From NCBI GenBank assembly GCA_017995735.1, contig JAGOIG010000003.1, positions 1 through 33,851 of the forward strand: DNA of 33,851 nt, in the 5' to 3' direction. The translations under genes and the position numbers were made by a program. Positions within the stretch are counted from its first letter, which is position 1. The number at the start of each line of letters is the position of its first letter. The stretch comes from Candidatus Kapaibacterium sp. (GTDB lineage: Bacteria; Bacteroidota; Ignavibacteria; Kapaibacteriales; UBA2268). The notes below the pieces were generated by a model. The model saw nothing but the letters and a program-made list of their open reading frames with translations. It had not been told where the DNA came from and made no database searches. Of this stretch, positions 11,477-30,226 are shown piece after piece.

Positions 11477-12371
11477 CTACATATTCTATTATATGTTTCC
11501 AACGGCGATGTTGCCAAACCCAGTGGTCGGGATATTGTCTTATTTTCTGTTCGAGGAAATCCGCATATCTTCGTGTAAGTTCATAAATGCCTTCCTTTGA
11601 GTTTTGCAAATCATCGTGTTTCAATTCATACATTTCAACTTTATAGGTAAAATCTTTTTGGCGAATCATAAAAGGCATAATAATTGGAACGTTGTACCGC
11701 AAAGCTAGACGTGCAGGTGCTTCATAAGTTGAAGTATATCTGCCAAAGAATGGGACGTAGACATCTTTATCTTTTGACGCGCTTTGGTCGGCAAGAATTG
11801 CAAGGATTTCTTTATTTTGCAAACTTTTAACAATTTCAAACGCAGAATTGTATGACGATATTAGTTTATTCCCAAAACGCATCCGCATTTTATTCAAAAT
11901 TTTATCAAGTTGAGCATTCGATTGAGGTTTTACAATAATGGTGGGTTTAATATCGAGATGCAATGCTACAGACAGAGCAAGAAGTTCCCAATTGCCAAAG
12001 TGGGCAGAAAGGAAAATAAGTCCTTTATTTTGATTAATTAAAGATTTTGTCAAATCAGCATTTTCAATTGATATTAAATAATTATAAATTGATTTTTTGG
12101 AAATAAAAATAAAGGCAAACATTTCGGCGAACACAATTCCAAGATTAGCAAAGCTTTGCTTGAATGTTTTTTCAATCCATTCTTTTGATTTATCGGGAAA
12201 AGCATAAGTGAGATTATCAAGAGTAATTTGCTTTCGGGAAGGAGATATTATCATTATTGAATATCCCAGCATTTTTCCAAAGTATCCTCTTGCTTTTCGA
12301 GGGAGTATAGCAGAAATAAGGCTAAGAAATAAAATGAAAATTGTGGAAATAGTGTTAAGTATAAACTTCAT
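11460..12371 (-). CDS. LpxL/HtrB-type lipid A late acyltransferase
   Basis: Transfers a secondary acyl chain onto lipid A (or a related lipid) at the inner membrane. The 303-residue protein has an N-terminal membrane anchor (about 5-24), the catalytic H-x4-E motif as H-F-G-N-W-E at 124-129, a D-Q-S-A-S-K segment near 191 and the hallmark C-terminal D-H-W-V-W-Q-H-R-R-W-K. All residues expected for activity are present. It overlaps the upstream GWxTD gene by 4 nt (ATGA) and the downstream GT9 gene by 17 nt, so all three are translationally coupled. This supports an outer-membrane lipid assembly unit. Whether it is an LpxL or LpxM equivalent cannot be decided. Confidence 0.9.
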   Translation of the reverse strand: MKFILNTISTIFILFLSLISAILPRKARGYFGKMLGYSIMIISPSRKQITLDNLTYAFPDKSKEWIEKTFKQSFANLGIVFAEMFAFIFISKKSIYNYLISIENADLTKSLINQNKGLIFLSAHFGNWELLALSVALHLDIKPTIIVKPQSNAQLDKILNKMRMRFGNKLISSYNSAFEIVKSLQNKEILAILADQSASKDKDVYVPFFGRYTSTYEAPARLALRYNVPIIMPFMIRQKDFTYKVEMYELKHDDLQNSKEGIYELTRRYADFLEQKIRQYPDHWVWQHRRWKHIIEYVDAENN

Positions 12372-13801
12372 CGAAGTTGATTGTTTTCTAATCCATTTGA
12401 TTCCAAGAAGTTTCTCTCTTTGACGTAATTATTATACCAATCGGGGTCATTTGGCTCACCTTTGAGATCTGAGTGAACGAGGATATAATTACCATATCCG
12501 ACCATATCAACAAAAATGAAATGAACACCACCTTGAATCTCGCCATAGAACCAATCCTCATACGGACGATTTTCTGCCCCTGCAGAATATCTATCCCGTT
12601 GGGTTGGTTCGCCATATTTCAAATAAATACGTCCACGGTCTGTGTTCCAGCCTGGATTTTTCTCTGTAAAAGTAAAGTACGTTTCTGCATATTTTATTCT
12701 TTCAAGATACTCCCCGCGGTCTTCATTATAAAATGTAGATGTATCAGAATCTCGTATTTTCCAAAAACGATATAAAAAACGTTGTCTTGCTTTGAGATCA
12801 GTCAATTTTTTCCATTGATCGACTTCAAAATTAGTCGCAATTGCTTTCGATTTCTTAAATTCTAATTCTGTTTGGTCATAAGATAATGCTGCAAATTCGC
12901 TCATTTCAAACAATTGATCTTCGGTAAACCCAGAATAATTTACTAACTTAGAATTTTTATTAAAATAATAGAATTTTTTGACATGATTATCATAAATTAT
13001 ATTATCATCTTTTGTATCAAGTAAAGAAACTTTTAAATAATATATGCCTGTCGATAAAAGGTCGAGCGGAATCGAGAAAATTTCAGATATTGCATCACTT
13101 TTTGGAATAATATTAATTGAAGATTTATTTACTTCCCGTTGAGCACCGTCAAGGATTGAGAAAGTTATTTTAACCGAATTTGGAGAAATCGTTTTTGCAT
13201 TATAAATTTCAAAATACAAATGTAAATTTGGTTCATCGGAATTATATTCACCTATGACATTTGGTAGTACATAATAATTACCCTTGATAAAAAAATGTCC
13301 TGAATTTTGATTAACTTTAGAGGCATCCTCAATTACTTGAGCAAGTTCTATTGAAGATAGTGTAATCGATTTTTCAGAGAAATTTTTAATCACAACTGAT
13401 GCTTTATCATTTGAATGATTATCGAGATTTTTGTCGTCATAAGCAGTTGTTAAAATGCTATATTCAGCAGGTTTGAGAAGAATCTTTTTTACACCATATA
13501 AATTATAGATATTGAATGTATCGGAGAGAGGCTTTATATTTGTATGTTTCCAACTCAATTCTTTTTTTTGACCATTATTTAGATTTTCAAATAAAATCGA
13601 AATATCAAGAATGCCAACTTGTTGAGAATCCACACGTTGATATGTTAGATTAGAATCTATAAATGTATAGTAAATTTCCAACAGAAGTGTATCTTTACTA
13701 TATTTAAATAAAGCAAAATCATAATTAATATTGATATTGCTTGAAAATAGAGGAACGGTTGAAAAGAGAACCGCAATTAAAAAAGTATATAATTTTTTCA
13801 T
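12368..13801 (-). CDS. Secreted GWxTD domain protein
   Basis: The GWxTD domain is a family found mainly in Bacteroidota, Ignavibacteria and some other lineages; function unknown. The 477-residue protein has an N-terminal signal peptide (hydrophobic 5-20), a beta-rich middle region, and a C-terminal domain with the diagnostic G-W-N-T-D at 384-388. The motif continues R-G-R-I-Y-L-K-Y-G-E-P and ends with aromatic-rich Y-E-D-W-F-Y and G-Y-G-N-Y-I-L-V-H-S-D. It overlaps the acyltransferase gene by 4 nt, so it is tied to LPS genes in this genome. It lies 105 nt after the PorV-family gene but is separated from it by a strong terminator, so it needs its own promoter in 13802-13868. Confidence 0.85.
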   Translation of the reverse strand: MKKLYTFLIAVLFSTVPLFSSNININYDFALFKYSKDTLLLEIYYTFIDSNLTYQRVDSQQVGILDISILFENLNNGQKKELSWKHTNIKPLSDTFNIYNLYGVKKILLKPAEYSILTTAYDDKNLDNHSNDKASVVIKNFSEKSITLSSIELAQVIEDASKVNQNSGHFFIKGNYYVLPNVIGEYNSDEPNLHLYFEIYNAKTISPNSVKITFSILDGAQREVNKSSINIIPKSDAISEIFSIPLDLLSTGIYYLKVSLLDTKDDNIIYDNHVKKFYYFNKNSKLVNYSGFTEDQLFEMSEFAALSYDQTELEFKKSKAIATNFEVDQWKKLTDLKARQRFLYRFWKIRDSDTSTFYNEDRGEYLERIKYAETYFTFTEKNPGWNTDRGRIYLKYGEPTQRDRYSAGAENRPYEDWFYGEIQGGVHFIFVDMVGYGNYILVHSDLKGEPNDPDWYNNYVKERNFLESNGLENNQLR

Positions 13802-13906: not shown

Positions 13907-14941
13907 TTATAATGACAAGCCTATTGTAAAGCGGTTGACAAGTCCTAGATCAAATGTTGGGGAAATTGCATAATCAAATCTGCCAATAAATCCTGGGCCA
14001 TCGTATTTGATACCAATACCCGCAGAAAAACCTGTCTCGTCATGGCCAAATAAATAGCCACCTCTTAATGATACAATATCGCCATATGTATATTCGATAC
14101 CTAATCCATATTGCTCAGGAACATCAGAATATGTAGTAAAATCAAATGCAGCTGTAAGAGCATGCTTATTGGCCTTCCAAACTGTAGAAGACAATCCAGC
14201 TCTAAATATTAAAGGATATGAATAACCATTTGAAATATACTCAACTTCTAATGGGTTAGCATCCATTGCGGTATATAATTTCTTGACATCTCTTAGAGAT
14301 TGTCCGCTAAATGTGGCTTCCGAGCCTAAATTATGTATCGAAAAGCCAATTTTAAGGCCTAGGAATCTTGTATCATAAAGAGTTCCAATATCGAATGCAA
14401 ATCCTGTTGATGAGACATTATAGATTGAATTACTAATATATTTTGCAGTCACCCCAAAGGAGAATTGCTCAGTCAAGAAACCGCTAAATGACAATCCTGC
14501 TGCAATATCAGAATTTTGATATTTGGTGCTCAATCCTTCGGGATAGGCAGTAGTCGTAACTTGTATATCTCCGCTGGATAATGAAATTAAATGAGCAGCG
14601 ATAGTAAAATCATTTCCTAATCCAAAAGAAACGGCAGCGAAATTATGAGTGTATCCAGCAAACCACTGCAAATATGAGAATTCAGCCGCTAAACCGCGTT
14701 GATATGCAAGCCCTGCAGGGTTCCAGTAAATCGAGCTTAGGTCATTTGCGACAGAGCTAAAAGCTGTCATCCCACTTCCACGGGCACCAATAGGTATTTT
14801 CAAAAATTGAGAGCCTGTAATTCCAACTTTATTATTGCCACCGCTCGATGTAGCAGTGGATGTCTCTCCTATTGCTAAAGCAAAATTTGTAGAACCTATA
14901 ATTAAACCAAAAACTACTATTAAATTTATTATTTTTTTCAT
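13907..14941 (-). CDS. PorV/PorQ-family outer-membrane beta-barrel protein
   Basis: Family of FadL-like barrels. PorV itself shuttles T9SS cargo from the translocon to the attachment complex, and paralogues serve other surface proteins. The 344-residue protein has a signal peptide (hydrophobic 4-23, A-L-A site). It then shows the family's N-terminal stretch F-L-K-I-P-I-G-A-R-G-S-G-M and N-D-L-S-S-I-Y-W-N-P-A-G-L-A, followed by about 14 alternating beta strands. AAAGGA is present 8 nt before the ATG. It is the last gene of a four-gene unit with a TonB receptor and two secreted proteins, and is followed by a terminator. A dedicated carrier or anchor for those proteins is likely but inferred; it need not be the core PorV of the cell. 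Confidence 0.85.
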   Translation of the reverse strand: MKKIINLIVVFGLIIGSTNFALAIGETSTATSSGGNNKVGITGSQFLKIPIGARGSGMTAFSSVANDLSSIYWNPAGLAYQRGLAAEFSYLQWFAGYTHNFAAVSFGLGNDFTIAAHLISLSSGDIQVTTTAYPEGLSTKYQNSDIAAGLSFSGFLTEQFSFGVTAKYISNSIYNVSSTGFAFDIGTLYDTRFLGLKIGFSIHNLGSEATFSGQSLRDVKKLYTAMDANPLEVEYISNGYSYPLIFRAGLSSTVWKANKHALTAAFDFTTYSDVPEQYGLGIEYTYGDIVSLRGGYLFGHDETGFSAGIGIKYDGPGFIGRFDYAISPTFDLGLVNRFTIGLSL

Positions 14942-14958: not shown

Positions 14959-17900
14959 TTATTCTTGAGGTATTAATCTAAAACCACCTACTACAACTGA
15001 GAAATTCCTAACTGCTTGGGCACCATCTGCTGAAGTAATTAATGCTACAAATGCTTGACTTTGCACCCTGATCCCGTTAGTAGTTAACAAATCCCACACC
15101 TCCATAAATTCACTATCTTTCATTGATGATGTTGTCTCATCGTGATTAATTGTTCTAACCAAATCGCCAGCAATTGTATAAATATTAATTGTGCATTTCT
15201 TTGGCAATTTAGTAAAGTAAATCTTAGAATCATACGGAGAGCGTGTACCTTCGTGCGCTATGAAATATGGATTTGGTACAACCTGCACATTTTGAAGTAA
15301 CTGGTCTGTATAAGTACCATTGTTACCTTTCGGGTTATTTAAACGGAATATTACTTTTGCATCGGGCATAGGCATACCAAGTGCTCCACCTAATGTGCGA
15401 AGAGTAATTTTATCGCCTGGTTTGAAATCATTTCCATAAACATAATTTTGTGTTCTTTGCCATTTTGGGCCAGTATTGAACATACGTCCCGAATTTGCAT
15501 AATCAAGAGCGAATTGAATACCTCCAATATTTAGTATATGTGTGAAATCAAGAGTATCTTTGCCATCTATAGAATATCCAGATAAGTAATATCTATTTTG
15601 CCTATCCATATAAAACTTTGCACCACCATCATTTGCAGAACTTATAAAAGGTTCGTAATTTGGACGTGCAGCTTGTTTTTGCAATTTAATCTCTGTCACA
15701 TGCCTCATATTTACCCAACCATATACACCAATGTTGTATTTTCCAATGAATTGATTAGTCTTAGGATTTAATCTATCTACACCTTGATAACCTAAATTAC
15801 GTGGATCTGGATAATATCTCTGCGGAAACATATTCTTAATTACTGTATTATAATTTGAATATCCATAATTGTCTCCGGTTCCTATCGGCAAATACATTGG
15901 TTCAAGGTTAGTAATTCCATTAACGACAACAGAATCATACGCATCTAATACTACTGGCCTCTTATATGTTAATGTATTTTTTACTTTTACATTCAAATAA
16001 TTCACAATGAATTTATTATTAAATGAATAATCTGGAGGATTTGCTCCCCAAACTACATCAAGAGTATCAGTACCACCGGGCAGGAATTCAACTTCATAGA
16101 TACCTGGACCGTTATTGAAGCTACCATATCCTGGTAAATATGAATCAAAATCCAAACCAACAGGTTGTGTTGACATTATATTGTCTGTATTTGAAATTGG
16201 TCCAGTATCATCAATAAATGTAACAGGTGTGGAAACGTCCATTCCTTCCGGTTTTGCTGTTGTTATTGTTATTGAATCAGGCCGATAGCGACCACCCCAT
16301 TGCTGCATTGTAAAATCATAGCTAAATCCAATTGTCCCATAAGCTGGTGGTAGGGTTGCCAATGCATAGCAATAACCTGGGTCGCGGAAATCACCTGACA
16401 TAAATGAACCTGATCGTGTAATAATATCTCTATTATACTTCAATCCAAAGGTAATTTGCTCGTTTGTAACTGTATCAGTAATAACAGTATCAGAAACCAC
16501 ATATGAACAACTATTCTCGGTAAATAAGCCACGGAATTCTCCGCTGCAAGGTACAATTTCAAAATTCATAAGCCCATCATAGAGGACCTTATCTGTTGTT
16601 AAATCTTTTAAGACCGCTCTACGTTGGTATAATCCAAATTTAATTGTATCTGTTCTACCTTGGAAATTAAAAGCATATTGATTCCAATATGGATTGAAAG
16701 TAAGTTCAAGGTCGTGTCCTGCAAAATTCTGCAAAGCTCTATCTCTATCAATAGCATACATTTTAAAATTAAATAATCCACCAAGTTTCAGAGAATCTTC
16801 AGGTGAAATTATAGTTTCGAAAATGGGCTCTTCTGAGACAGTATTTGCCGATGGTTTTACGCTAGTTATATTTGGTAAGCCAATAAATGCATCATTAACC
16901 TTAGATGGTGTTCGTTGAACATAATCCCCTTCATCAAAAGCAAGTATTTTATAATAATAATCGATATTATTAACTAATTGCTCGGATTTTGTTGGGTCAG
17001 CATCAACCTGAATATATCCATCTACAACTTTATCATCACCAATATCAGTAAACGTTCGATTATTTGTAAGTTCCTTTACATATGGAATTATAACTTCTTT
17101 TTGAGCAGCATCAGATTGTTCAAAATCTGGGAAGTCAATTGTAACCCATCCATTTTGAATATACTTATACAATTCCTCTAATACAATTTGATATTTTATA
17201 GTATCTTTTAATGTGCTATTAAGATTGTCATAAGTCAAAATGTCAATTATGTAACCTGTTGATGATAAGGTTGATTTCCGAAGTGTAGATAATTGATAAA
17301 CTGTGTCAATTGAGGTTCTGACAGTATCAAGTTTTCCAAAATTCTCTTCAACATGCCATTGTCCAACCATTCCATCTTTGAACATAAGATTTTTAATATA
17401 GTTAGGATCAATTGAAATTGTATTTTCTTTATAGAATATCCTATTATAAGGCATAAATGCTTTTTTGAGATGAACAACTCCCAACATAACACTATCGATA
17501 AGTTTATTATTTGTTCCGACATCGGGAAGAATTTGCATTGTTGGGATATCAACTCCGCTTTCTTTTAATAATTTATAATAGTAAGGACCCCATGGTTTAC
17601 TATATAAAGAAGTATCAATGCCAACAATAAATGGTGTGGCAGTAAGTATATTTCCATCGGAAGTTAAAAGATTTGCTATTGATATACCTCGAGGAATACG
17701 GACAACACGTAATGCGAGAGAATCAAGTATCTTACCAACAGAGTTCATAACAGGTCCTACAATCCTCAAGGAATCAATGTAGGGCATTAAAGCATTATTA
17801 GGATCGGTTCCAGCTTTATTTACTGATTTGAAGAATGGTGTTGGAATTTGATATTGAGATATTAATTTCCATCCAAAAGGACCTTTACCACCAGGATAAA

Positions 17901-19485
17901 GACCTCCACCTTTTATATTATTGACATCAAAAGTATCTAAGTCAACACGGCGTGCTCTATAAATCTTCAAGCCCATAAAATCGAGGCCCTTCTCGTATAC
18001 ATCTTTTGAAAGTTCAGCAGTACTATCCCATTGAATAGCGACAGCATGATTATAACCATTTTGACGATAAATAATACTTCTATCAGGGGGTGTAGGAGTT
18101 CGGAAATTGTTATCGTAAACCTCCTGAGCAAATTTATCTTTGAAAACAAGTTCCTGCATATCTTCATAAGATCCATCAGCATTGGCACCTTTTGTTGGCA
18201 CAGCAAGGACCATTCCCACAACTACTCGAGCTGTATCATTTGGTTTCATATTGAAAGGACCTGTAGCCATTAGAAGCCGTTTGTCACCAGGACCTGTATC
18301 GCCATCTTTAACAGCAGCAGACATAAAATTGTATCTATCTTCTGCTTCGATTTTATCTTCAGAAATTGGCCAGTTTCTAAAAGTCACCAAACCAATTTGT
18401 TCTGAGTTTAAAAATACTCGCTTATCGTGCCGAATATATCTCGATGAATCAATTGCGGGTGATTCAAGAAAATCAAATCCTAAATAACCAAAACCTTGAT
18501 TGGCTTCGCCTCTATCGGAGTTTGACCATTGTGCTGCAAGATTAAGTGTGTCCTCTTTATCATAGAATCGCACTCTATCATTTGTCGCACCCAATGAATA
18601 ATTTGGATAAGCAGCAATATCTATGTCCATAACAGGAGCAACCCAGACTTCTTGCAGAATATCTGATGATTTATTAATTATATTAAATGATAAGAAAATA
18701 AAATCTCTATAATCACCAAAGCCCCAAGAATAAATAGTTTGCTCGACTTGAAGACGAAGTGGATAACCCTCACTCTTCATTTTTCCTGCACCTGGTTCAA
18801 AGAAGTTCAGGTCCGTATCTTTATATGTTGCAAAAATATCTTCGCCTGATATAAATGCAGGGCCTTTTGGGAAAATTGATTTATATCTAGTTGTTGAATC
18901 ATAAATAAAATGGCCAAAATACCTGTTTTGCTTTAGTGTATCATTTTGTGAATCATCCCAGATAGGCCAATTACCTTTGTCATTAACAGATAGCGGTGTT
19001 CCATCTGTCCGAAAATCAACAGAAAAGAAAGTACGATAGCGATAAATATCTGTTTGATCAACTAAATCTCCATCATTGATACTACCAGGAACAAACCAAG
19101 ATTTTCCTGAATTTGGATTATAAGAAACCTCTACATATTTTTTTAAATCGTTGGGGTCAGTGGATCCTGGCCTTACCTTTTTTGCCCCAATCCAAATACC
19201 ACCACCGAAAATATATTGATTTGTTGAACCGCGTGGCCAAAAACCACCACCTGTATTATGAGCAATATCTAAACCAAATATCCCATAATTCGATGTATAA
19301 AAGTCAATATTACTTACTGTATTTTTTTGTACATCAAACACACTTGTGTAAGATTTTGTAAGTATTTGATTAGTATTGCTTTCTTTTTTATTTTGTTTAT
19401 ATTCAGGCAAAATATCAGCCTTTATATTTAAACAACTTACAAGAATAAACAAAATTGTTAATGTTAATATATTTGTTTTTTTCAT
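14959..19485 (-). CDS. Large secreted surface protein with C-terminal T9SS/FlgD-like domain
   Basis: 1508 residues, function unknown. The N-terminus is a signal peptide with L-V-S-C at 15-18, which fits a lipobox; cleavage by signal peptidase I is also possible. Early landmarks are G-G-F-W-P-R-G and Y-I-F-G-G-G-I-W-I-G-A, which I recall from large secreted proteins of Ignavibacteria-type genomes. The C-terminus carries V-P-N-P-Y-F and a beta-sandwich with I-N-I-Y-T-I-A-G-D-L-V-R-T-I, the pattern of FlgD-Ig/T9SS type A sorting domains, but extended by a V-V-G-G-F-R tail. No membrane helix lies in the body. It is 17 nt before the PorV-family gene and 18 nt after the TonB receptor, so one transcript is likely. 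A surface partner of the receptor, taking the place SusD holds in Bacteroidia, is speculative. Confidence 0.75.
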   Translation of the reverse strand: MKKTNILTLTILFILVSCLNIKADILPEYKQNKKESNTNQILTKSYTSVFDVQKNTVSNIDFYTSNYGIFGLDIAHNTGGGFWPRGSTNQYIFGGGIWIGAKKVRPGSTDPNDLKKYVEVSYNPNSGKSWFVPGSINDGDLVDQTDIYRYRTFFSVDFRTDGTPLSVNDKGNWPIWDDSQNDTLKQNRYFGHFIYDSTTRYKSIFPKGPAFISGEDIFATYKDTDLNFFEPGAGKMKSEGYPLRLQVEQTIYSWGFGDYRDFIFLSFNIINKSSDILQEVWVAPVMDIDIAAYPNYSLGATNDRVRFYDKEDTLNLAAQWSNSDRGEANQGFGYLGFDFLESPAIDSSRYIRHDKRVFLNSEQIGLVTFRNWPISEDKIEAEDRYNFMSAAVKDGDTGPGDKRLLMATGPFNMKPNDTARVVVGMVLAVPTKGANADGSYEDMQELVFKDKFAQEVYDNNFRTPTPPDRSIIYRQNGYNHAVAIQWDSTAELSKDVYEKGLDFMGLKIYRARRVDLDTFDVNNIKGGGLYPGGKGPFGWKLISQYQIPTPFFKSVNKAGTDPNNALMPYIDSLRIVGPVMNSVGKILDSLALRVVRIPRGISIANLLTSDGNILTATPFIVGIDTSLYSKPWGPYYYKLLKESGVDIPTMQILPDVGTNNKLIDSVMLGVVHLKKAFMPYNRIFYKENTISIDPNYIKNLMFKDGMVGQWHVEENFGKLDTVRTSIDTVYQLSTLRKSTLSSTGYIIDILTYDNLNSTLKDTIKYQIVLEELYKYIQNGWVTIDFPDFEQSDAAQKEVIIPYVKELTNNRTFTDIGDDKVVDGYIQVDADPTKSEQLVNNIDYYYKILAFDEGDYVQRTPSKVNDAFIGLPNITSVKPSANTVSEEPIFETIISPEDSLKLGGLFNFKMYAIDRDRALQNFAGHDLELTFNPYWNQYAFNFQGRTDTIKFGLYQRRAVLKDLTTDKVLYDGLMNFEIVPCSGEFRGLFTENSCSYVVSDTVITDTVTNEQITFGLKYNRDIITRSGSFMSGDFRDPGYCYALATLPPAYGTIGFSYDFTMQQWGGRYRPDSITITTAKPEGMDVSTPVTFIDDTGPISNTDNIMSTQPVGLDFDSYLPGYGSFNNGPGIYEVEFLPGGTDTLDVVWGANPPDYSFNNKFIVNYLNVKVKNTLTYKRPVVLDAYDSVVVNGITNLEPMYLPIGTGDNYGYSNYNTVIKNMFPQRYYPDPRNLGYQGVDRLNPKTNQFIGKYNIGVYGWVNMRHVTEIKLQKQAARPNYEPFISSANDGGAKFYMDRQNRYYLSGYSIDGKDTLDFTHILNIGGIQFALDYANSGRMFNTGPKWQRTQNYVYGNDFKPGDKITLRTLGGALGMPMPDAKVIFRLNNPKGNNGTYTDQLLQNVQVVPNPYFIAHEGTRSPYDSKIYFTKLPKKCTINIYTIAGDLVRTINHDETTSSMKDSEFMEVWDLLTTNGIRVQSQAFVALITSADGAQAVRNFSVVVGGFRLIPQE

Positions 19486-19503: not shown

Positions 19504-22500
19504 TTAAAATTTAATCATAAAACCAAAATAAATAGTACGAGGAGCCATATAATTGCCAAGGAATGACAAAGCATCTTTTGCATAACGCATATATGCTTCA
19601 TATTTTTCAGCTTGGGTAACGGTTCCATTTTGATCAAGATCTGCATTTGCATTATAGAATCTATTTCCATAAATATCATATTGGTCCGACCTGAAAGAAG
19701 CTGCATTATCAAAGCTTGCATCCTTATACCAAGTAACACTACTAAAATCGCCAATCTGGCGTTGAAGTGTAACACCATTATCAACTGCATCTCCTGTTGT
19801 GGAATAAACTCCAACCACAGCTCTCCTGTTAAGGATATTATAAATATCAAAGAAGATTTCGATAGAAGTATTTCCTAATGATTTTCCAAAGATATTACGT
19901 AGATAGATTTCTTTAGAAATTCGAGAATCTACTGTCCAGTATGAAGGTTGGCGTTCTGCATTAATTTCACCAATGATATTACCATTTTTATCTGTTTTTG
20001 TATACGGGTAGCCGCTTCTATATACACCCGTGAAATTTATCTGAGCATTTTGTAAAGGTTTCACCTTAAATATTGATGGTCCCTCATCATTGCCCCAAAC
20101 AAATGTTAAATAACCTTTTACATAATGGCGGACATCCCACGGTTGTGGAAATGGTGCTAATGGGAATGCCATTCTACCCGAATAAGGATCATAGGATACC
20201 ATATAATTAGAACTTGGATCAGGTGCTGTACCCGTTACATAAGATAAAGTATAATTTAACACTAAAGCAATATGATCGTTTGTCGGATTCTTCCTAAATT
20301 CTACCTCTACACCTCGAGAATTGCCAAATTCTGCTACAGAATATTGATAATAAGGTGTAGGAATAGATGGAACATACGCAAGACCAAGTTGATTGTACAT
20401 ATCTTTATAATATGTAGTCACACCAAGTGCCATATTATCACCAATTTGTTGATTATAGCTTACTTGATATTCATTAGTTCGCTGTGATTCCATATTTGGA
20501 TTGCCAAGTAAATTATTTCCTCGTAGAATGTCGACAGCAAAATTATCATATAGATACTGATACGATGGAGTTTTGAAATATAATCCATAAGATAGCGACA
20601 ATACAGATTTGTCAGTAATAGGATAAGCAATATTAATTCGTGGGCTTATTTGATACTTCACACTTGCATCTGCAAAACCTGTATCCGAACGTATGGATAC
20701 AAATGTATTAGAAGGCAATCTATATTGAGAATTAGGTGCAAATAAATCTAAACGTAAACCTGGAGTAAATATAATCCCCTTATAAGAAATTTTGTCCTGT
20801 ACATACATAGCAAATTGTGTTGGCTTGAAAGGTTTGCTTGTTTTATCATAAATTGCTTTATTATCAGCATAGATGTTTCCGCCATATTTATCTGTAAATA
20901 AATCAAAGAAGGGGTTTCCATCCCATGGCATACCGTTATAATGTCTATGCAATTCAAAGAGCTGTAATTGAAATCCTGTTTTGAACAAGTGTGAAAAATC
21001 ACTCCCCGTTTTGAAGGAATTTGTGTAATTACCATCTATTTGCCAATAATATTGGTCACGAAATTCTAATCCGCCTTGATTTCCATGAGTTGCGAATAGC
21101 CCTTGAACCCCATACGGATTATCCGTGCCGGCGTAAGCTGCTCCTTCATAATATCCGGTTAAACTATTTCTTACAGGGAAATCGCCAAGTAAATAGCCAT
21201 CGCTAGTATATTGCAAAGCTGTCCAAGATGTAAATTGATCAAGAATTTTATCTCCTACAATACGTCCATCTTGCATTGTTCCGGGAACTAATGTTTTACC
21301 ATCAAAAACATATTTATCTTGCGGTTCCATTATTTCAAATCCTGTAAAGAAATTAGGATCATCAAAGTTCCCTCTACGTCCTACTTGGTCAGTATTAACA
21401 TTATACGAAACAGTAAAATCATAGAAGCTTGAAGCTGTTAATGTATGGTTTATACGCCCCAAAAATTTATAATTATATTGGTTTCCAACATATTGTTTTG
21501 CAAAATTTTCAGGTACGCCATTTAGTGTTCCGTCAGATTTAACACCCTGAGTAGTATCATACAACCAGCCCCAACCACCAAGTTCGTGGGAACCTATACC
21601 ATATTCAGTACCAAGTATTAAACCGATATCGCTTGATAATTGGAATCTTAACCTGAGGGAGATATTTTTAACCCACGATCTTTGATTATCAAATTGCCCT
21701 AGATTATTTCCTGCAGGGTCATAAATTTCGTAACTTGAGTTCCTATATTTATCGGTTTCACTGCGTGCGGCAATATAAAAAGTAGAATTCTTTAAGAAAG
21801 GTATTTTCAATGGTCCCCCGATACCAAAATCAAAGGTATTCTGACCGGGTCCCTGCAATTTTGCGCCCTCGCCCGTTAATACAGGAACTAATTTTGTATC
21901 TTGTTTTATAATTTGCAAACCGTGTGCTTGCCTTCCCCAAAGTCCAGGTACATCTGTACGGTATCTAAACAAACCTTCATAACGGTCCGTCCTTCCTGTC
22001 TTTAAAACATTATTAACAACACCGCCTTGGGATTCTCCATATTCTGCTGAAAAGCCACCTGTGAGCACTTGAACTTCCTCAACAGCATAAGCTGATACCA
22101 TTGGATAAAATCGTGTCCCGCCAAGTCCCATATCACCAGTAAAACGGTTTGTTATATCCAAACCATCTACTCTAATTTGTGTCTCTGATGATCTAGTACC
22201 TCTAATATTAAATCCATCACCTGCATCACGGACGCCTGCGCTAAGACTCACAATCGAATTGATACCTTCTCGTGATGTGGTTGTAATTTCATCACCTGTA
22301 AAGGTTGTTTGTTTACCCACAGCATCTTTACTCACTAGCGGTCGTTCAGCTGTTATGACCACAGTTTCCTTCATAATTGCTTCATCTTCGAGAACAGCTG
22401 AGACTTCTGTTGTCTCATCAGCAGATATTCTGACTTTTTTAATAACCGTCCTTTTCCCAACAGCACGAAATTCAATTTCGTACTCGCCTGCAACTATATT

Positions 22501-22698
22501 TGCTATCGTAAATTCCCCATTCTTATCGCGGACATTCACTCCCCGTGTTGTACCTTTGACAAGTACAGTTGCGCCGACGACTCCTTTACCTTCGGAATCA
22601 ACAACCTTGCCATGAAGTACTCCATAGATACTTGCATAACTCAAGATCGGGAAAAATAATGATAGAAATAAGCTTAATAGTATGATTTTTTTTGTCAT
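19504..22698 (-). CDS. TonB-dependent outer-membrane receptor with carboxypeptidase-regulatory-like domain
   Basis: Energised outer-membrane importer or protein-handling channel; substrate unknown. The 1064-residue protein has a signal peptide (hydrophobic 5-22), then a CarboxypepD-reg-like beta-sandwich (about 27-110, with G-K-V-V-D-S-E-G-K-G-V-V-G-A-T-V). A plug domain (about 125-235, with F-N-I-R-G-T-R and Q-I-R-V-D-G-L-D) and a 22-strand-type barrel follow, ending in the canonical terminal Phe. Just before the last strand is a canonical EF-hand loop D-L-D-Q-N-G-T-V-T-Q-A-E (1020-1031), unusual for this location. There is no SusD homologue beside it. It sits 16 nt after the Asp-box protein gene and 18 nt before the 1508-residue protein gene. 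Confidence 0.93.
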   Translation of the reverse strand: MTKKIILLSLFLSLFFPILSYASIYGVLHGKVVDSEGKGVVGATVLVKGTTRGVNVRDKNGEFTIANIVAGEYEIEFRAVGKRTVIKKVRISADETTEVSAVLEDEAIMKETVVITAERPLVSKDAVGKQTTFTGDEITTTSREGINSIVSLSAGVRDAGDGFNIRGTRSSETQIRVDGLDITNRFTGDMGLGGTRFYPMVSAYAVEEVQVLTGGFSAEYGESQGGVVNNVLKTGRTDRYEGLFRYRTDVPGLWGRQAHGLQIIKQDTKLVPVLTGEGAKLQGPGQNTFDFGIGGPLKIPFLKNSTFYIAARSETDKYRNSSYEIYDPAGNNLGQFDNQRSWVKNISLRLRFQLSSDIGLILGTEYGIGSHELGGWGWLYDTTQGVKSDGTLNGVPENFAKQYVGNQYNYKFLGRINHTLTASSFYDFTVSYNVNTDQVGRRGNFDDPNFFTGFEIMEPQDKYVFDGKTLVPGTMQDGRIVGDKILDQFTSWTALQYTSDGYLLGDFPVRNSLTGYYEGAAYAGTDNPYGVQGLFATHGNQGGLEFRDQYYWQIDGNYTNSFKTGSDFSHLFKTGFQLQLFELHRHYNGMPWDGNPFFDLFTDKYGGNIYADNKAIYDKTSKPFKPTQFAMYVQDKISYKGIIFTPGLRLDLFAPNSQYRLPSNTFVSIRSDTGFADASVKYQISPRINIAYPITDKSVLSLSYGLYFKTPSYQYLYDNFAVDILRGNNLLGNPNMESQRTNEYQVSYNQQIGDNMALGVTTYYKDMYNQLGLAYVPSIPTPYYQYSVAEFGNSRGVEVEFRKNPTNDHIALVLNYTLSYVTGTAPDPSSNYMVSYDPYSGRMAFPLAPFPQPWDVRHYVKGYLTFVWGNDEGPSIFKVKPLQNAQINFTGVYRSGYPYTKTDKNGNIIGEINAERQPSYWTVDSRISKEIYLRNIFGKSLGNTSIEIFFDIYNILNRRAVVGVYSTTGDAVDNGVTLQRQIGDFSSVTWYKDASFDNAASFRSDQYDIYGNRFYNANADLDQNGTVTQAEKYEAYMRYAKDALSFLGNYMAPRTIYFGFMIKF

Positions 22699-22714: not shown

Positions 22715-24676
22715 TTATTTAATAATACTTAACATCTTTGTTGTGGATTTATTTCCGCTTTTTAAAGTAATATAGTATGTTCCTGATTGGAGATCTTTTG
22801 TATCAATATTATATGAATAGACCCCCTCAGATTGAACACCTGAAAACACATTTTGCAATTTCTTTCCAAGTAAATCATATATTGAAATATCAATATTTGC
22901 AACGCCTTTTATTGAATAATCGAGTGAAGCAGAATTCTGAGCAGGATTTGGATAAACTCGATTTAAATTAGTTTCAGATTGTGCTATTGGATAATCATCA
23001 ACACCGAGTATTGCATTAAAATGAGCAATCTGGACTTCTTGTTTACGCAGATATTGTCTCATAGCAAGAATATATTCACTTGTGCCAGGAACTTCATTAT
23101 TAGCTGGATCAAAAATTGTTTGAATTTTTAGAATTGGTATATCAACTAAATTATTTGGAACAATTGGTGCAATATGAGTTTGTCTATCATATTCATCACT
23201 TTCAGTCAAATTTCTAGGGGTTTGCCATCCTGTTCCTTGTGTGAGATCTTTAACAGAATAAAACACATCACTTGTACCAAATTGATAAGTACTGTCAGTG
23301 ACCCAATTCACATCTATTAAATCAACCCATTTAAGGAATAATTTTGATTCATCAACTGTTTTTGCAAGCTGGAGTTCATTATAAGTTGGATTAGCGAAAG
23401 GATTGAGATTTTCATCTACTACATTTACATAGAGACCAGTACAATCAGCAATTTTTGAAATAGACCAACTTTGACTTGATGCTGTATATTTTACTTCAAC
23501 TAGTTGATTAATTAATTCATAAAATGCTTTATAGGAATTAAATTCTCTAAAATGTCCAATAAAATACACATCGCCATTCGAGAGAACCGTAAATCCTTCT
23601 GCATCATAAAGAATTCCTGCACTATCCCGTTCGATACCAAGAGACTCTGTATAATCTTGTATAATACTCGCGGGCATTATTACATAAGGTTGCCAGGTAT
23701 CACCATTATCTGTCGATATAGAAAAACCAAATTTTGCTTTTTGAACATCAGGTGTTACTTTAAAATTGCCTAAAACACCGAGGTAAAGTGGAGAGTTCGG
23801 ATTTGAATTAAGTGGACGTAAGCCTATAATTTCATTAGGACGAGAGGATGTGTCTGTAACGGGATAAAAGAAAGAAGATTTCCAAGCATCGGGTATAGAG
23901 GTCTCGACACTTTCCATTTCCACAATCTTTCGCAATCCGAAATTTCCATAATCTGATAAATCTTTTGATAATGGAGTGATACCATTCGCTGCAATAATTA
24001 CTAATTGGCCTGAACCATTAGTATATCCATGGACGACAGCATCACTTATTCCCCAATCATATACCGCACCATTTGCTACACATTTTTGTGAGCCAAGGCT
24101 ATTTATATCACCCTCAGCAGACCATAAACCTGTTACTTGACCCAGCCAGCTTCCTGACGCTTCATTAACTAAAGATCCACTGAATGCAACTGCAAACACA
24201 TCATCATACAGAAAAGTTGAACATGTTGGGTATCTTCCACTTCCTATTTGGCTTTCAATTTCGTCATAAACTAAAATTCTCGGTTCCCAGGTATAACCAT
24301 TATCTTTTGAAATTCTTAGAAATAGATTATTCTTTGAATTTAATTTAGTCCAACCTGCATCAGTAACCTCTTTTGACCCTCTCTTTATAGTCACCAAATA
24401 ATTATTAATAGGGTCAAAAACAAATGGGGTTTCTGCTGAAGAACCGCAATAAGAAAGAGAATTTGCAATACTATCAAAAACTGTAAAACTTGTTTCTTGT
24501 AAACGGTCCACTGGCTTTGCAAATATCTTTTGCCAATCATAATCCTTAAGATCAATTTCTTTTGCCTGCCGCGCATCTTGAGGAAGATGTTTAATAATAG
24601 GCACTTCCTCAGAGAACAATAAATTTGTGCATCCTATTAAAAAGAATGCAACAATCAAGTTTTTGTAAAATTTCAT
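22715..24676 (-). CDS. Asp-box (BNR) beta-propeller protein with T9SS type A sorting domain
   Basis: Surface or secreted protein exported by T9SS; enzymatic role unknown. The 653-residue product has a signal peptide (6-20; L-I-G-C also resembles a lipobox). Its propeller-like body contains two clear Asp-boxes, S-K-D-N-G-Y-T-W (123-130) and S-T-D-N-G-D-T-W (about 310-317). The C-terminal T9SS domain (about 575-653) has V-Y-P-N-P-A, I-S-I-Y-D-L-L-G-K and the G-T-Y-Y-I-T-L-K ending. Asp-boxes occur in sialidases, glycosidases and non-enzymatic propellers; I do not see a sialidase F/Y-R-I-P motif, so a binding role is as likely. GGAG lies 5 nt before the ATG. It opens the four-gene cassette, 75 nt downstream of the anti-sigma-barrel gene. 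Confidence 0.82.
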   Translation of the reverse strand: MKFYKNLIVAFFLIGCTNLLFSEEVPIIKHLPQDARQAKEIDLKDYDWQKIFAKPVDRLQETSFTVFDSIANSLSYCGSSAETPFVFDPINNYLVTIKRGSKEVTDAGWTKLNSKNNLFLRISKDNGYTWEPRILVYDEIESQIGSGRYPTCSTFLYDDVFAVAFSGSLVNEASGSWLGQVTGLWSAEGDINSLGSQKCVANGAVYDWGISDAVVHGYTNGSGQLVIIAANGITPLSKDLSDYGNFGLRKIVEMESVETSIPDAWKSSFFYPVTDTSSRPNEIIGLRPLNSNPNSPLYLGVLGNFKVTPDVQKAKFGFSISTDNGDTWQPYVIMPASIIQDYTESLGIERDSAGILYDAEGFTVLSNGDVYFIGHFREFNSYKAFYELINQLVEVKYTASSQSWSISKIADCTGLYVNVVDENLNPFANPTYNELQLAKTVDESKLFLKWVDLIDVNWVTDSTYQFGTSDVFYSVKDLTQGTGWQTPRNLTESDEYDRQTHIAPIVPNNLVDIPILKIQTIFDPANNEVPGTSEYILAMRQYLRKQEVQIAHFNAILGVDDYPIAQSETNLNRVYPNPAQNSASLDYSIKGVANIDISIYDLLGKKLQNVFSGVQSEGVYSYNIDTKDLQSGTYYITLKSGNKSTTKMLSIIK

Positions 24677-24751: not shown

Positions 24752-26041
24752 TCAAAATTCAAAATGAAATCCATATATTAATGAAATTGTAGAACTAATT
24801 TTACTTTTCGCTTCGGGATTAAAGCTTTGTCCTAATAAAAGTTTTGATTCGCTTCCCACTGTAAAGTCTATAGAGTTAGAAATTTTATAATTAGCCAACA
24901 CTTTCAAGTTCCCTATCATTCCACTACCACTAAATCCCGCACCTATCCTTGATGATAAAGTAAAATCATAAAAATCCAATAAGTTTTTTTCATAAAACAG
25001 GCCCGCCCAAATTATTTTTTGTTCATAATTCACTTTACCTGGTGTTCGTATTAAAAATTCAGTTCCTCCACTATTTACTAAAGAGCCAAACACATCTCGG
25101 GAACCTGATTTAATATCAAGAAAGTTCGCCCTATCCACTCCAATTTGAAAATATCCCGTTTCAATACCGATTTTTGAATCTGGATTTAAATTGTATGCAA
25201 CACTTTGAGTGAATGATGAAATTGTAGAATGCGATTTATTTACACCAAATATGGCAATATCAGTGCCTAAAAATGAATTAAGTTCTACTTGTTCCGATTT
25301 TGCAATAGTAGAGATTGCATTTAAAAGTTCTCCGTTAAAATTCTTTATTTGCTGCTTATTGAAAATTAAGATTTCATTTTGGGTTATCATATTTTTTACG
25401 AAAAATGAATTATCCATTTTCAAGTTATTTCTCTGAATATTTTGTGCAAATTGGGCTTCGGTCATATAAGGATTTGACGATAAGGACATTTTATTTGATT
25501 TGTCAGGAGTGGGCTCGGGATTTTCACTGAGCTTTGCAATTCCATCTACTTTTGAATATATTGTTATTTGTTTATTTCTTTGATTCTTTTTAATTATCGA
25601 CTTCTTTTTAATTTTAGAATTATTATCAGAAAGCAAATTCGATATTGTGACTTTTTCATTATTTATTGATTCTGTCAATTTCTCATCATTGTGTTCTTTT
25701 ATGAGATAATGAATGGGATTATCAATATTTGAAAAGACAAGAAATAGCATAATAGCGAGCACTGATGCAAATTTAAATTGGTTCGATTTTTTCTTTCGCG
25801 CAATTTTTTTATTATTATCTGCAATAATTTTATTTTTGATTTCCTCTTTGACATTATCAAAGAATTCCTCTGGAAAATCGACTTCATTTGCATCTTTTTT
25901 AATTTCAAAATCAAAATTGAGCAAAGCATTATATTCTTGCTTTAATGATGGATCTTCCTCAATCATTTTCAGCAATATGGCATTTTCTTCTCGAGTTATT
26001 GTGCCATCAATATATTTAAATATTAATTCAGTTAGATTCAT
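24752..26041 (-). CDS. Membrane anti-sigma factor-like protein with C-terminal beta-barrel-like domain
   Basis: 429 residues. The N-terminus (1-50) has the anti-sigma pattern Y-I-D-G-T-I-T-R-E-E-N...E-E-D-P-S-L without zinc-ligand Cys/His. One membrane helix (about 89-105) follows a Lys/Arg-rich stretch, which predicts a cytoplasmic N-terminus. A polar, Lys- and Asn-rich linker (106-250) leads to about eight alternating strands (255-429) with aromatic ends and a terminal F-x-F, typical of small outer-membrane barrels. The second copy at 30966-32174 shares A-Y-N-x-N-P/I-E-x-G and other motifs. The gene overlaps the sigma gene by 14 nt. The inference is that it restrains the sigma factor and responds through its outer-membrane end. 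Alternatively the C-terminal beta domain may be periplasmic. Confidence 0.72.
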   Translation of the reverse strand: MNLTELIFKYIDGTITREENAILLKMIEEDPSLKQEYNALLNFDFEIKKDANEVDFPEEFFDNVKEEIKNKIIADNNKKIARKKKSNQFKFASVLAIMLFLVFSNIDNPIHYLIKEHNDEKLTESINNEKVTISNLLSDNNSKIKKKSIIKKNQRNKQITIYSKVDGIAKLSENPEPTPDKSNKMSLSSNPYMTEAQFAQNIQRNNLKMDNSFFVKNMITQNEILIFNKQQIKNFNGELLNAISTIAKSEQVELNSFLGTDIAIFGVNKSHSTISSFTQSVAYNLNPDSKIGIETGYFQIGVDRANFLDIKSGSRDVFGSLVNSGGTEFLIRTPGKVNYEQKIIWAGLFYEKNLLDFYDFTLSSRIGAGFSGSGMIGNLKVLANYKISNSIDFTVGSESKLLLGQSFNPEAKSKISSTISLIYGFHFEF

Positions 26042-26591
26042 TTAATTCTTTCACAAGTGGTGCCAATAATTCTTTTAATTTAAGTCGAGCGCGATGAACT
26101 CTGACGAGGGCAGTATTTTTATCAATTTTCAAAATTTCTGCAATACTCTCATAAGTCAAATCTTCATAATCTCTAAGAATTAAGGCTTCTCTGAGCAAGA
26201 TTGGTAATAATTGGATTTTTTCGTTTATAGCTTCTTTCATTCCAATGTTCAAATAACTTCGTGGTTTAAATCCATAATCATCGTTACCAATTTTAACTTG
26301 TCTTTTCTGCTTGCGGAGATAATTAATGCAAGTATTATGCGCAATCGTATATAGCCAATTATGAAAAGTCTCGGGCTTAATATCCATTCTGTGTTCATAA
26401 GCTTTCAAAAATGTCTCATGAAAGCAATCCTTGGCTAGTTCTTCATCTCCAAGCAATTTAAAGCATAATCTGTAGATCATATTTTTAAATCGATTATATA
26501 AAAATTCAAAAGCTTCGGCATCTCCTTCCTTAAACCTTTTGGTTGCTTCTATGATTTTCTCTTGCTCGCTATTTTCATCGCCTTTTTTCAT
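26028..26591 (-). CDS. ECF RNA polymerase sigma factor (copy A)
   Basis: Alternative sigma factor of the extracytoplasmic-function group, 187 residues. Region 2 is clear around 30-90 (Y-N-R-F-K-N-M-I-Y-R, then D-C-F-H-E-T-F-L-K-A-Y). Region 4 is at about 125-175, with R-E-A-L-I-L-R-D-Y-E-D-L-T-Y and the helix-turn-helix I-A-E-I-L-K-I-D-K-N-T. It overlaps the downstream anti-sigma gene by 14 nt, the usual arrangement for a regulated pair. No ribosome binding site is visible. A possible -7 element, TAAATTTG (complement of 26642-26649), lies about 50 nt upstream. Its likely targets include its own operon and perhaps the surface cassette that follows on the same strand. Confidence 0.93.
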   Translation of the reverse strand: MKKGDENSEQEKIIEATKRFKEGDAEAFEFLYNRFKNMIYRLCFKLLGDEELAKDCFHETFLKAYEHRMDIKPETFHNWLYTIAHNTCINYLRKQKRQVKIGNDDYGFKPRSYLNIGMKEAINEKIQLLPILLREALILRDYEDLTYESIAEILKIDKNTALVRVHRARLKLKELLAPLVKELNESN

Positions 26592-26641
26592 TCTCGAACT
26601 TTATCTCAAATATATATACAATTTCGCAACTTGATTTATTA

Positions 26642-26649
26642 CAAATTTA
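26642..26649 (-). promoter_or_regulatory. Candidate -7 element for the sigma A operon
   Basis: On the minus strand the sequence reads TAAATTTG, matching the Bacteroidetes consensus TAnnTTTG. An imperfect -33 (ATTG, 26672-26675) lies 22 nt further upstream. The surroundings are about 90% A/T, so chance matches are common. Confidence 0.25.
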
Positions 26650-27186: not shown

Positions 27187-27239
27187 TTATTATTTTTCTA
27201 CCTTTTTTATTATTTTTGCTTTATTACTTTTTACTTAAA

Positions 27240-28943
27240 ATGAAATTCTATCAAATTTCTCTTTTTTTATTTATTATCCCACTAGTTGTAAATGCAAAGG
27301 TACAGGATTTCGATACACTCGCAAATGATAATAAATGCTTAACCTTCCATAATTCCAATCAAAAAAATAAAATTCTAAAAACATTGTATTATGATTCAAC
27401 GGGACGTCCAATCAATCAAAAGATATTTTTATCTCCTTCGGGATTATTTTTGATACATTATGATACATCAGGAGTTCATTCAGTGGATTTAACTGACAAT
27501 GCTCACAATGGCATCCCTGATTACGTTGATTCTGTTGCTTATTACTGCGATTATACATATCAAAAAGAAGTTGTAGAGTTCGGTTTCCGCTCCCCTCTTG
27601 GAGATAGTTCTATGGGTGGAAGTGATGCTTATGATATTTATCTTTTAAATATTGGTGATAGAGATCTTTATCCAAATTCTAACGGCGTCAAAGATAATGG
27701 CGGAGCGTATGGGTTTACACAAGCTGAGCTTCAAATTAACTCAGGAACAGGTTACGCAAAAAACACGTCATTTATTATAATCGACAATGATTTTTCTCCA
27801 AAGGATTCGATGCTAACAGCTGACAACCAGTTAGTCCAATCATTTAAGGTTTTTGGCTACGATGGTGCAAAGGTTACAATTGCCCACGAATTCCACCATG
27901 CAATACAGATGCGTTATGGATTTGATGATTATACGGGGGCAATAATTGCAGAAATGTCAAGTGTAATGATGGAAATGACTCTATACCCTGAAATCCTAGA
28001 TTATATGCAATATGTACGCAGTTTGTTCAAAAATCCCTCAAAATATCCATTTAGCAAACCTGATGCAAATGTGGGCTATCGCTACGGCATTTTTGCGTAT
28101 TTTTTGCAAAAAAGATATGGGATGGATGCAATCAAAAAAATTTGGGAGGTAATTGGGAATGGTACACCTACATACAGAGCAATAAATTTAGCACTTCAAA
28201 GTTATAATTCATCATTGAACCAAGGATGGAAAGAATTTATTAAAACCATTTATTATACTAATTCTCGAGGCAAAAGCAACCCATATTTTGAAAATGCTTG
28301 GCAAATGCCCGAATTTTCAATACACAATGAAATGATTTTTTCGCCTCCATCTGCATCCTATTCAGGCGAATTATTGCAATATGAAATACGAATGGATAGA
28401 ACAATTATAAATAATCAGCTTCCACTTAGCAATGACACATTGATTGCAATTTCATCAAGTTTTGATACAACTGCACTTTTCAATCAAAATACATATTATG
28501 ATGATTTTAATGCATCAATTTGCAATGATAATGTGCAAGATGCAATACTAATTTTTGATAATTCATCTCGTAAAAAGTATTTTTTCTTATCGAGTATTCA
28601 TAATACTATAGAAGCAGAATTGATTGAGATAATCGGTGAGGAAACAAATGCAATTGATTACGCATTCCCAAGTCCTTTCCGATATAATGATGATGATATA
28701 ATTTATTTCCCTGCCCCTGAGAACATTGAAATTGGGAAAAAAGCAAATATTAAAATATACAATTCAGCAATGAAAGAAATTTATAATAATGATATTTCAA
28801 TATCATCTATTAATAAAAATAGAATCATTGCTCTCGACATTAAAAATACAGTACCTAGATTGAACCTTGAAACAGGAGTTTACATTTATGAAATTGAAGC
28901 AAATGGGGAGCAAAAAATTGGCAAGATTGCTATAATAAAGTAA
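27240..28943 (+). CDS. MXAN_6640-type secreted zinc metalloprotease with C-terminal sorting-like domain
   Basis: Putative secreted protease, 567 residues. A signal peptide occupies 1-19 (V-V-N-A site). The zinc motif H-E-F-H-H is at 216-220 inside T-I-A-H-E-F-H-H-A-I-Q. It is followed by I-I-A-E-M-S-S-V-M-M-E-M with E238 as a possible third ligand, and then Y-M-Q-Y-V, the arrangement seen in the MXAN_6640 family. The C-terminus has F-P-S-P-F-R-Y and G-V-Y-I-Y-E-I-E-A-N-G, resembling a T9SS type A domain. I start at ATG 27240 rather than TTG 27216 because the signal peptide begins directly there. It probably shares a transcript with the FnIII-like gene. No terminator is evident after it. Confidence 0.8.
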   Translation: MKFYQISLFLFIIPLVVNAKVQDFDTLANDNKCLTFHNSNQKNKILKTLYYDSTGRPINQKIFLSPSGLFLIHYDTSGVHSVDLTDNAHNGIPDYVDSVAYYCDYTYQKEVVEFGFRSPLGDSSMGGSDAYDIYLLNIGDRDLYPNSNGVKDNGGAYGFTQAELQINSGTGYAKNTSFIIIDNDFSPKDSMLTADNQLVQSFKVFGYDGAKVTIAHEFHHAIQMRYGFDDYTGAIIAEMSSVMMEMTLYPEILDYMQYVRSLFKNPSKYPFSKPDANVGYRYGIFAYFLQKRYGMDAIKKIWEVIGNGTPTYRAINLALQSYNSSLNQGWKEFIKTIYYTNSRGKSNPYFENAWQMPEFSIHNEMIFSPPSASYSGELLQYEIRMDRTIINNQLPLSNDTLIAISSSFDTTALFNQNTYYDDFNASICNDNVQDAILIFDNSSRKKYFFLSSIHNTIEAELIEIIGEETNAIDYAFPSPFRYNDDDIIYFPAPENIEIGKKANIKIYNSAMKEIYNNDISISSINKNRIIALDIKNTVPRLNLETGVYIYEIEANGEQKIGKIAIIK

Positions 28944-29431: not shown

Positions 29432-30082
29432 TTATCTTATTAACGAATAATAATCATGATGAGTATCTGTTGTCATTTGTATTACACCTGCCCTAACTAA
29501 TCTAATTAGCAACCTTCCCGCTCGTCTTCTAGATATATTTACCAACTCAGCATATTCTTGCACAGAAATTCTATCATTCATCTCTAAATATTGAAACAGG
29601 CGTTGCTCCTTTTCGCCAATTCCCAAACGCAAAGGCTTTCCATCTGTTTGAGCTTTCATCAATCGTTTCATTTCACTACTTGCGGGCATTGAATTTTCCC
29701 CAACACGTATAAATACTTGTCGATATTCTTTCCCATCTGTTTCATCTATTAATATAGCTTGATATGGCTTACGGTTTCCTTCCTTGATTGCAACAACCAT
29801 TACATCTTTTCCCTGTATCTCAATTATTTCAATTTCCGGTTTTATCTCGGGTTCAACTGAAAATTTGCACGCTCTTTCTACAATATCAGCTTCGCTCTTT
29901 TCACTTTTTATACCTACAATCGATTTATCATCATCAACTCCTACAAATATGTACCCGCCTTTTGTATTTGCAAATGCGCAAATTTCCTTTGCTATTTTTT
30001 CGGGAGTTTTTAGTTTTCGCTTGAATTCAATTGAGGTTCCCTCACCCCCCTCAATCATTTTTAATACTTCTTGGACATACAT
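29432..30082 (-). CDS. AlbA_2/Schlafen-type putative DNA-binding/ATP-binding regulator
   Basis: 216 residues from the chosen ATG. The N-terminal domain (about 5-130) matches the AlbA_2 (divergent AAA-4/Schlafen) family: E-G-G-E-G-T-S-I-E-F-K, F-A-N-T-K-G-G-Y-I-F-V-G-V-D-D and an R-V-G-E-N-S-M-P segment. The C-terminal part (about 155-216) looks like a winged helix (I-S-V-Q-E-Y-A-E-L-V-N-I-S-R-R-R-A). This layout suggests a transcriptional regulator, though targets are unknown. The frame is open to 30163 and would add 27 mostly hydrophobic residues. I chose 30082 because family members begin a few residues before the G-E-G-T-x-x-E-F-K motif. The longer form would be membrane-anchored. No ribosome binding site supports either start. 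Confidence 0.78.
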   Translation of the reverse strand: MYVQEVLKMIEGGEGTSIEFKRKLKTPEKIAKEICAFANTKGGYIFVGVDDDKSIVGIKSEKSEADIVERACKFSVEPEIKPEIEIIEIQGKDVMVVAIKEGNRKPYQAILIDETDGKEYRQVFIRVGENSMPASSEMKRLMKAQTDGKPLRLGIGEKEQRLFQYLEMNDRISVQEYAELVNISRRRAGRLLIRLVRAGVIQMTTDTHHDYYSLIR

Positions 30083-30226
30083 TATAAAGAGCGCAATTAT
30101 TAATAATATAAAATACGAAAATATGCAAAACGAATTGTTAAAGAATATAAACATTCTAATCATTTAAGAAGGTGAAAAATCATCCGAATGCATAATGTGG
30201 AATGATAAAGTATTATATGATTTCTT

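Follow-up and report, generated by a model that had tools for sequence, protein, structure and literature searches.

A predicted anti-sigma factor anchored in both membranes heads, with its ECF sigma factor, a conserved surface-protein operon in Kapabacteria-type Bacteroidota

The sigma/anti-sigma pair and its operon

The window, that is, the whole stretch of 33,851 nt analyzed here, contains two pairs of ECF sigma factor and anti-sigma genes, copy A and copy B, together with a series of envelope genes following copy A (Table 1). The sigma gene of copy A overlaps its 429-aa partner gene by 14 nt, which a preliminary description of this locus had pointed out and which the coordinates of the open reading frames bear out; in relatives the overlap is 11 or 14 nt as a rule. 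Across the homologous loci the sigma gene keeps the same position, directly upstream of the anti-sigma gene, and the sigma factor was also placed in a sigma tree. The 429-aa protein itself is without any Pfam match, and phage-defence models matched neither the A nor the B proteins.

The pair stands at the front of a conserved operon, newly described here, that also contains genes for a TonB-type receptor, a PorV-family protein and type IX secretion. Wherever the sequence of a relative extends far enough, the sigma factor is followed by the anti-sigma barrel protein, in most cases the BNR-repeat type IX protein, the TonB-dependent receptor and a protein of about 1500 aa, and then by the PorV-family protein, the GWxTD protein and two envelope genes; all lie on one strand, mostly with short gaps between them. 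Copy B (30966-32754) is genuinely, if distantly, paralogous to copy A (BLASTP E 8e-7), and profile comparison of the two families gives 98% in the N-terminal and 98% in the C-terminal domain. Two further genes of the window are listed here as observations: positions 27216-28943 (plus strand), divergent from the sigma operon, encode a putative metalloprotease of the MXAN_6640 family (3e-45) that carries a weak type IX tail, and positions 29432-30163 (minus strand) a putative regulator that matches the PADLOC candidate model PDC-S50 at 4.7e-11, probably a generic domain match.

Table 1. Features of the copy A operon and of copy B in the window
Feature	Position	Strand	Evidence
Predicted operon promoter TGTAAT-N16-TTGTAT	26616..26643	-	diverged copy of family motif, 2 mismatches
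ECF sigma factor (copy A), 187 aa	26028..26591	-	Sigma70_r2 3e-18, Sigma70_r4_2 6e-12
Overlap of sigma stop and anti-sigma start, 14 nt	26028..26041	-	sequence
Anti-sigma barrel protein, copy A, 429 aa	24752..26041	-	ORF, homologues, alignment, AlphaFold2 model
Predicted zinc-less class I anti-sigma domain, residues 1-82	25796..26041	-	PDB fold matches, weak zf-HC2, profile match
Predicted inner-membrane helix, residues 88-104, N-terminus inside	25730..25780	-	AlphaFold2 helix, charge bias
Predicted disordered periplasmic tether, residues 105-248	25298..25729	-	pLDDT <50
Predicted 8-stranded outer-membrane beta-barrel, residues 249-429	24755..25297	-	eight strands 252-427, structure matches
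Secreted BNR-repeat protein, type IX sorting tail	22715..24676	-	Por_Secre_tail 1e-11; same place in most relatives
TonB-dependent receptor	19504..22698	-	CarboxypepD_reg and Plug; conserved downstream in relatives
1508-aa protein, conserved in operon	14959..19485	-	no Pfam match; E near 0 in relatives
PorV/PorQ family outer-membrane protein	13907..14941	-	NF033709 1.7e-49; conserved
GWxTD-domain protein, conserved operon member	12368..13801	-	TIGR04514 8e-23
ECF sigma factor (copy B), 195 aa	32167..32754	-	37% identical to copy A sigma
Predicted dual-membrane-spanning anti-sigma paralogue (copy B), 402 aa	30966..32174	-	8-nt overlap with own sigma

Architecture and distribution of the anti-sigma protein

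The AlphaFold2 model of the 429-aa protein was built on an alignment of 32 sequences. The preliminary description had read from the sequence an anti-sigma-like N-terminus, one membrane helix at about 89-105, a linker of about 145 residues and a barrel-like C-terminus, and the model recovers all four parts: helices at residues 3-82 with a class I anti-sigma fold, a membrane helix at 88-104, a disordered region (105-248) of about 144 residues, and eight strands (252-427) that end in ...YGFHFEF and form a confident outer-membrane-type barrel. A confident soluble fold for the C-terminus, which would speak against the barrel, did not appear in structure prediction.

The head helices reach pLDDT 78-93 in most blocks. 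Folded alone and compared with the whole PDB, the head retrieved RsiW first, with MucA, ChrR and RslA among the few other matches; the Foldseek probability for RsiW was 1.00, and the E-values of the head matches were only 0.04-0.05. Structure alignment (VIA) gave Z 7.1 for RsiW, 6.2 for MucA, 5.6 for RslA and 4.1 for RseA, of which even the highest is modest for a helical domain of this small size. Against the profiles of solved structures, the head profile reached RsiW and RseA at E 0.7-1.2 only, and the full-length profile retrieved nothing useful. Additionally, zf-HC2 weakly matched 19/29 copy A family members. The zinc-binding HxxxCxxC motif is absent, and the A family alignment has no conserved Cys or His; this motif is optional in class I, and RseA and MucA likewise do without it. 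The head profile matches stand-alone anti-sigma factors at 99%, and the homologous stand-alone domains L117 and L119 retain zinc-type Cys residues. Outside the order, it finds anti-sigma-like proteins with other C-terminal parts, most of them adjoining sigma genes. Both fold and homology thus assign the A head to class I. As a side observation, the head relatives L106, L110, L113 and L118, which adjoin sigma genes, are fused to a periplasmic domain that by eye is putatively carbohydrate-binding (glycogen-binding-like), and L111 (1486-2583, plus strand) carries a head-like domain, a membrane helix and, again by eye, a putative trypsin-type protease domain, with a sigma-like gene nearby.

Distances among the sigma factors follow those among the heads (r 0.82, and partial r 0.67 when controlling for the barrel) more closely than those among the barrels (partial r 0.36). 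This co-divergence suggests, at the level of sequence, that sigma factor and head are in contact, and the contact is predicted on the basis of fold, homology, gene adjacency and co-divergence taken together.

Behind the head, a positive-inside charge bias in 42/44 A members places the N-terminus inside. No A member has a tether of fewer than 129 residues; in the family alignment, conservation is seen in the head and the barrel but not in the tether. The barrel is modelled with pLDDT mostly 72-97, one loop excepted. Compared with 8-stranded outer-membrane proteins, it scores Z 12.6-14.9 overall, including NspA (Z 14.9, rmsd 2.8 over 140 residues), OmpA (14.6), PagL (14.2), OprF (13.6) and OmpW (12.9). 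A C-terminal beta-signal is found in 42/43 A members, such that the protein combines an eight-stranded barrel of the OmpA/OmpX/NspA fold with this signal, and the A family shows no variation at several barrel positions (G, E, R). The HMM comparison with OMP_b-brl families that had been suggested as a check on the barrel gave no match in the A family: no copy A member matched PF13505 or PF13568 at E 1 or better, and one B-family member reached E 0.41. As judged from the model, one chain should physically join the outer membrane and the sigma factor, in support of the earlier proposal.

A homologue of copy A is present in 40/60 related genomes, nearly always as a single open frame of about 400-580 aa; because of this recurrence, the 429-aa architecture is not a chance product. 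All four parts are present in the aligned homologues, and about 44 family members from Kapabacteria-type Bacteroidota retain this layout. An adjoining sigma gene is present in 29/30 loci of one collection and in 30/30 loci on GTDB contigs (59/60 in total), two collections that share part of their genomes or species. A contig scan with the single protein returned no relatives, and with the alignment as query it returned 30 loci. The named contigs with family A belong to Candidatus Kapabacteria/Kapaibacterium, a member of the phylum Bacteroidota in the case of Kapaibacterium, and to 'Ignavibacteria' MAGs. Two loci (L082 and L085) lie on contigs labelled Desulfobulbaceae and Bradyrhizobiaceae, which are probably mis-binned or mislabelled MAG contigs. 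The B family has matches in 55/60 genomes, with up to 22 in one genome (G050), and all 30 B loci read (L031-L060) have an adjacent sigma gene.

Promoter motif and predicted regulon

A Gibbs sampler run on the sequences preceding the sigma gene returned TGTAAC-N16-KTGTCT with a score of 937 versus 357-373 in shuffles. Of 39 homologous loci, nearly all carry the motif ahead of the sigma gene, and its shape is typical of ECF-type promoters. The copy in the window is weak on its own because of its two mismatches, and the window's own genome contains no exact TGTAAC-N16-KTGTCT site; for these two reasons, we infer the regulon from relatives. In 20 family genomes, the motif has 94 exact matches versus 22 for the reversed pattern. 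Among the distinct sites followed up, 49/57 are intergenic and at most 200 nt upstream of a same-strand gene, compared with 1/20 controls (Fisher p 8e-11); this p value is optimistic, since coverage of the motif sites was close to complete in four genomes, whereas those from the other genomes had been selected. Among the genes downstream of the motif in relatives are those for ExbD and TonB_C and several whose products bear type IX sorting tails. We also observed the motif before penicillinase-repressor (BlaI/MecI-type) genes in L237 and L254 (Pfam-confirmed in L237 only), possibly a further regulatory layer, and before STAS-domain genes in L233 and L252 (Pfam-confirmed in L233 only). For the B sigma factors, the same kind of search was weak (373 versus 287-309 in shuffles), and the candidate motif was dropped on account of this score.

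Proposed mechanism and relation to known systems

The architecture, the pairing, the operon, the promoter with its autoregulation and the theme of the regulon are supported by computation, and from them we propose the following mechanism. The cytoplasmic class I domain would clamp the sigma factor, the single helix would cross the inner membrane, the long disordered tether would span the periplasm, and the BAM machinery would build the 8-stranded barrel into the outer membrane. A change at the barrel, such as failed insertion, an occupied or missing partner, or a pull on the tether, would most likely lead to proteolysis of the anti-sigma protein and release of the sigma factor, by analogy with RseA/RsiW and Dma. 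Once freed, the sigma factor would use TGTAAC-N16-KTGTCT promoters to transcribe its own operon together with a small regulon, comprising the TonB-type receptor, the PorV-family protein and type IX cargo, and in relatives TonB and ExbD as well, so that the supply of surface proteins might be matched to the state of the outer membrane. Four elements go beyond the computed features and are inferred: membrane insertion in the living cell, the nature of the signal, cleavage by a protease and the direction in which the feedback acts. Taken as a whole, we consider it likely that this ECF sigma factor is held by an anti-sigma protein anchored as one chain in both membranes, and that the pair provides transcriptional feedback from the outer membrane to the supply of surface proteins. 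In this little-studied Bacteroidota lineage, the condition of the cell surface could thereby directly activate genes that serve outer-membrane transport and the secretion of surface proteins.

What the barrel reports, and whether the chain stays whole, can be read in other ways. The protein may sense assembly load: normally folded and stable, it would be cut only in new copies whose barrel is not inserted, as RseA is when porins misfold. This is a possible reading, which we hold tentatively. The beta-signal and the OmpA-like barrel, which must use BAM, the wealth of outer-membrane and surface proteins in the regulon and the RseA-type fold of the head are all consistent with it; however, the invariant barrel residues may indicate a specific partner, and the predicted regulon raises rather than lowers the supply of outer-membrane proteins, opposite to the relief given by sigmaE. 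A different sensor would be the TonB-dependent receptor of the operon, signalling to the barrel or the tether in a Fec-like manner. Its gene follows in every relative with enough sequence, and TonB and ExbD are part of the predicted regulon, but the receptor has only CarboxypepD_reg and Plug with no match to the signalling (STN) domain, and the anti-sigma protein has no FecR domain match, so we regard this route as unlikely. The same receptor qualifies the contrast with FecIRA drawn in the preliminary description, in which a separate TonB receptor was the mark of the classical systems: the contrast loses sharpness, as the conserved operon itself includes a TonB-dependent receptor gene further downstream, and it stands insofar as no signalling domain is predicted in this receptor. 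Finally, the tether might always be cut, leaving a conventional anti-sigma factor in the inner membrane and an independent small barrel, the two being joined only at synthesis. A disordered, unconserved tether would allow this, yet the fusion is kept in about 44 A and 29 B members and the tether is never shorter than about 106 residues among them, as expected if length across the periplasm matters; we rate this reading as quite improbable.

The closest described architecture is that of the Dma family, whose members consist of an anti-sigma head, a helix, a long disordered tether and a barrel, are encoded beside an ECF21 sigma gene, span both membranes and control vesicle formation; the family is stated to be restricted to Bacteroidota, and the pairs Dma1/Das1 and Dma2/Das2 of Bacteroides thetaiotaomicron are characterised (PMC13088901, dated 2026, a follow-up to the 2024 PNAS founding Dma paper). 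The dual-membrane architecture is therefore not unprecedented, and the earlier statement that no mechanism had been characterised for barrels attached to anti-sigma proteins is out of date. The ECF classification literature examined does not mention barrel-bearing anti-sigma factors. For comparison, we used Dma2 orthologues recognised via their DUF4943 neighbour, with the gene order of the published operon, instead of the B. thetaiotaomicron genes themselves, and with their help compiled 19 Dma-type proteins from the Bacteroidota order to which the orthologues belong.

The A protein shares the complete Dma layout in a single chain, the adjacent cognate ECF sigma gene, the phylum and a similar minimum tether length, and these likenesses would fit a true but very diverged Dma, with sigma pairs from a shared ancestor. 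Against such descent, profile comparison of the A family with the 19 Dma-type proteins yields 3% for the heads and 5% for the barrels, compared with the 98% between copies A and B, and the B family scores similarly low. The Dma-type barrels match OMP_b-brl (best E about 7e-7 to 4e-12), whereas the A barrels do not. In the sigma tree, 20 Das-type sigmas split from all 70 A and B sigmas on a 100/100 branch, which puts the A sigma outside the ECF21/Das clade as judged by tree placement. Moreover, a genome of the same order as the window (G050) encodes a Dma-type protein (L147, 805-2058, minus strand; Dma profile E 1e-16) beside its own sigma gene (2051-2626, minus strand) and carries A and B types too, such that both kinds coexist. 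Since the head is of class I, neither end has profile homology to Dma, the sigma factor falls outside the Das clade and a true Dma-type pair occurs in the same order, Dma descent is not detected, and we consider it improbable. By sequence comparison, the A protein is a Dma-like variant: it would work like Dma, but membership by descent fails on homology and on sigma clade. The barrels of A and Dma may share a very deep common ancestry. We give about even chances to the wider proposal that Kapabacteria-type Bacteroidota built a second class of both-membrane anti-sigma proteins independently of Dma, from a class I head and a barrel, with single-copy A providing direct feedback from the outer membrane to the promoter for TonB/ExbD energy transfer and type IX cargo, and B expanded to many paralogues (the 22 matches in G050). 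The large B family would supply numerous natural variants with which to trace the signal that the barrels respond to.

Placed among known systems, the A protein resembles RsiW, MucA and RseA in the fold and homology of its cytoplasmic head, in its membrane anchor and in its likely release by proteolysis; those proteins end without an outer-membrane barrel, while the A chain continues into one. Like FecI-FecR-FecA, the locus unites a sigma factor, an anti-sigma factor and a TonB-dependent receptor, and it differs in the missing FecR and receptor signalling domain matches and in an anti-sigma protein with a barrel of its own. In the SigP and PorX/PorY system of Porphyromonas gingivalis, type IX secretion genes are likewise tied to an ECF sigma factor, but control of SigP runs via a two-component system, and the text does not mention an anti-sigma factor (PMC4800418). 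With its conserved promoter and regulon, the A system has a testable function as an outer-membrane gauge in cells that export many type IX proteins and use TonB-driven receptors. Relative to Dma, whose architecture has so far been described as a special class in Bacteroides, the A protein carries a class I, RsiW/MucA-like head of about 80 residues instead of a short one of about 45, and its predicted regulon consists of TonB/ExbD and type IX cargo. A second lineage with another head, barrel sequence and sigma clade suggests that the tie between sigma factor and outer membrane arose on more than one occasion, or is far older and more widespread than known.
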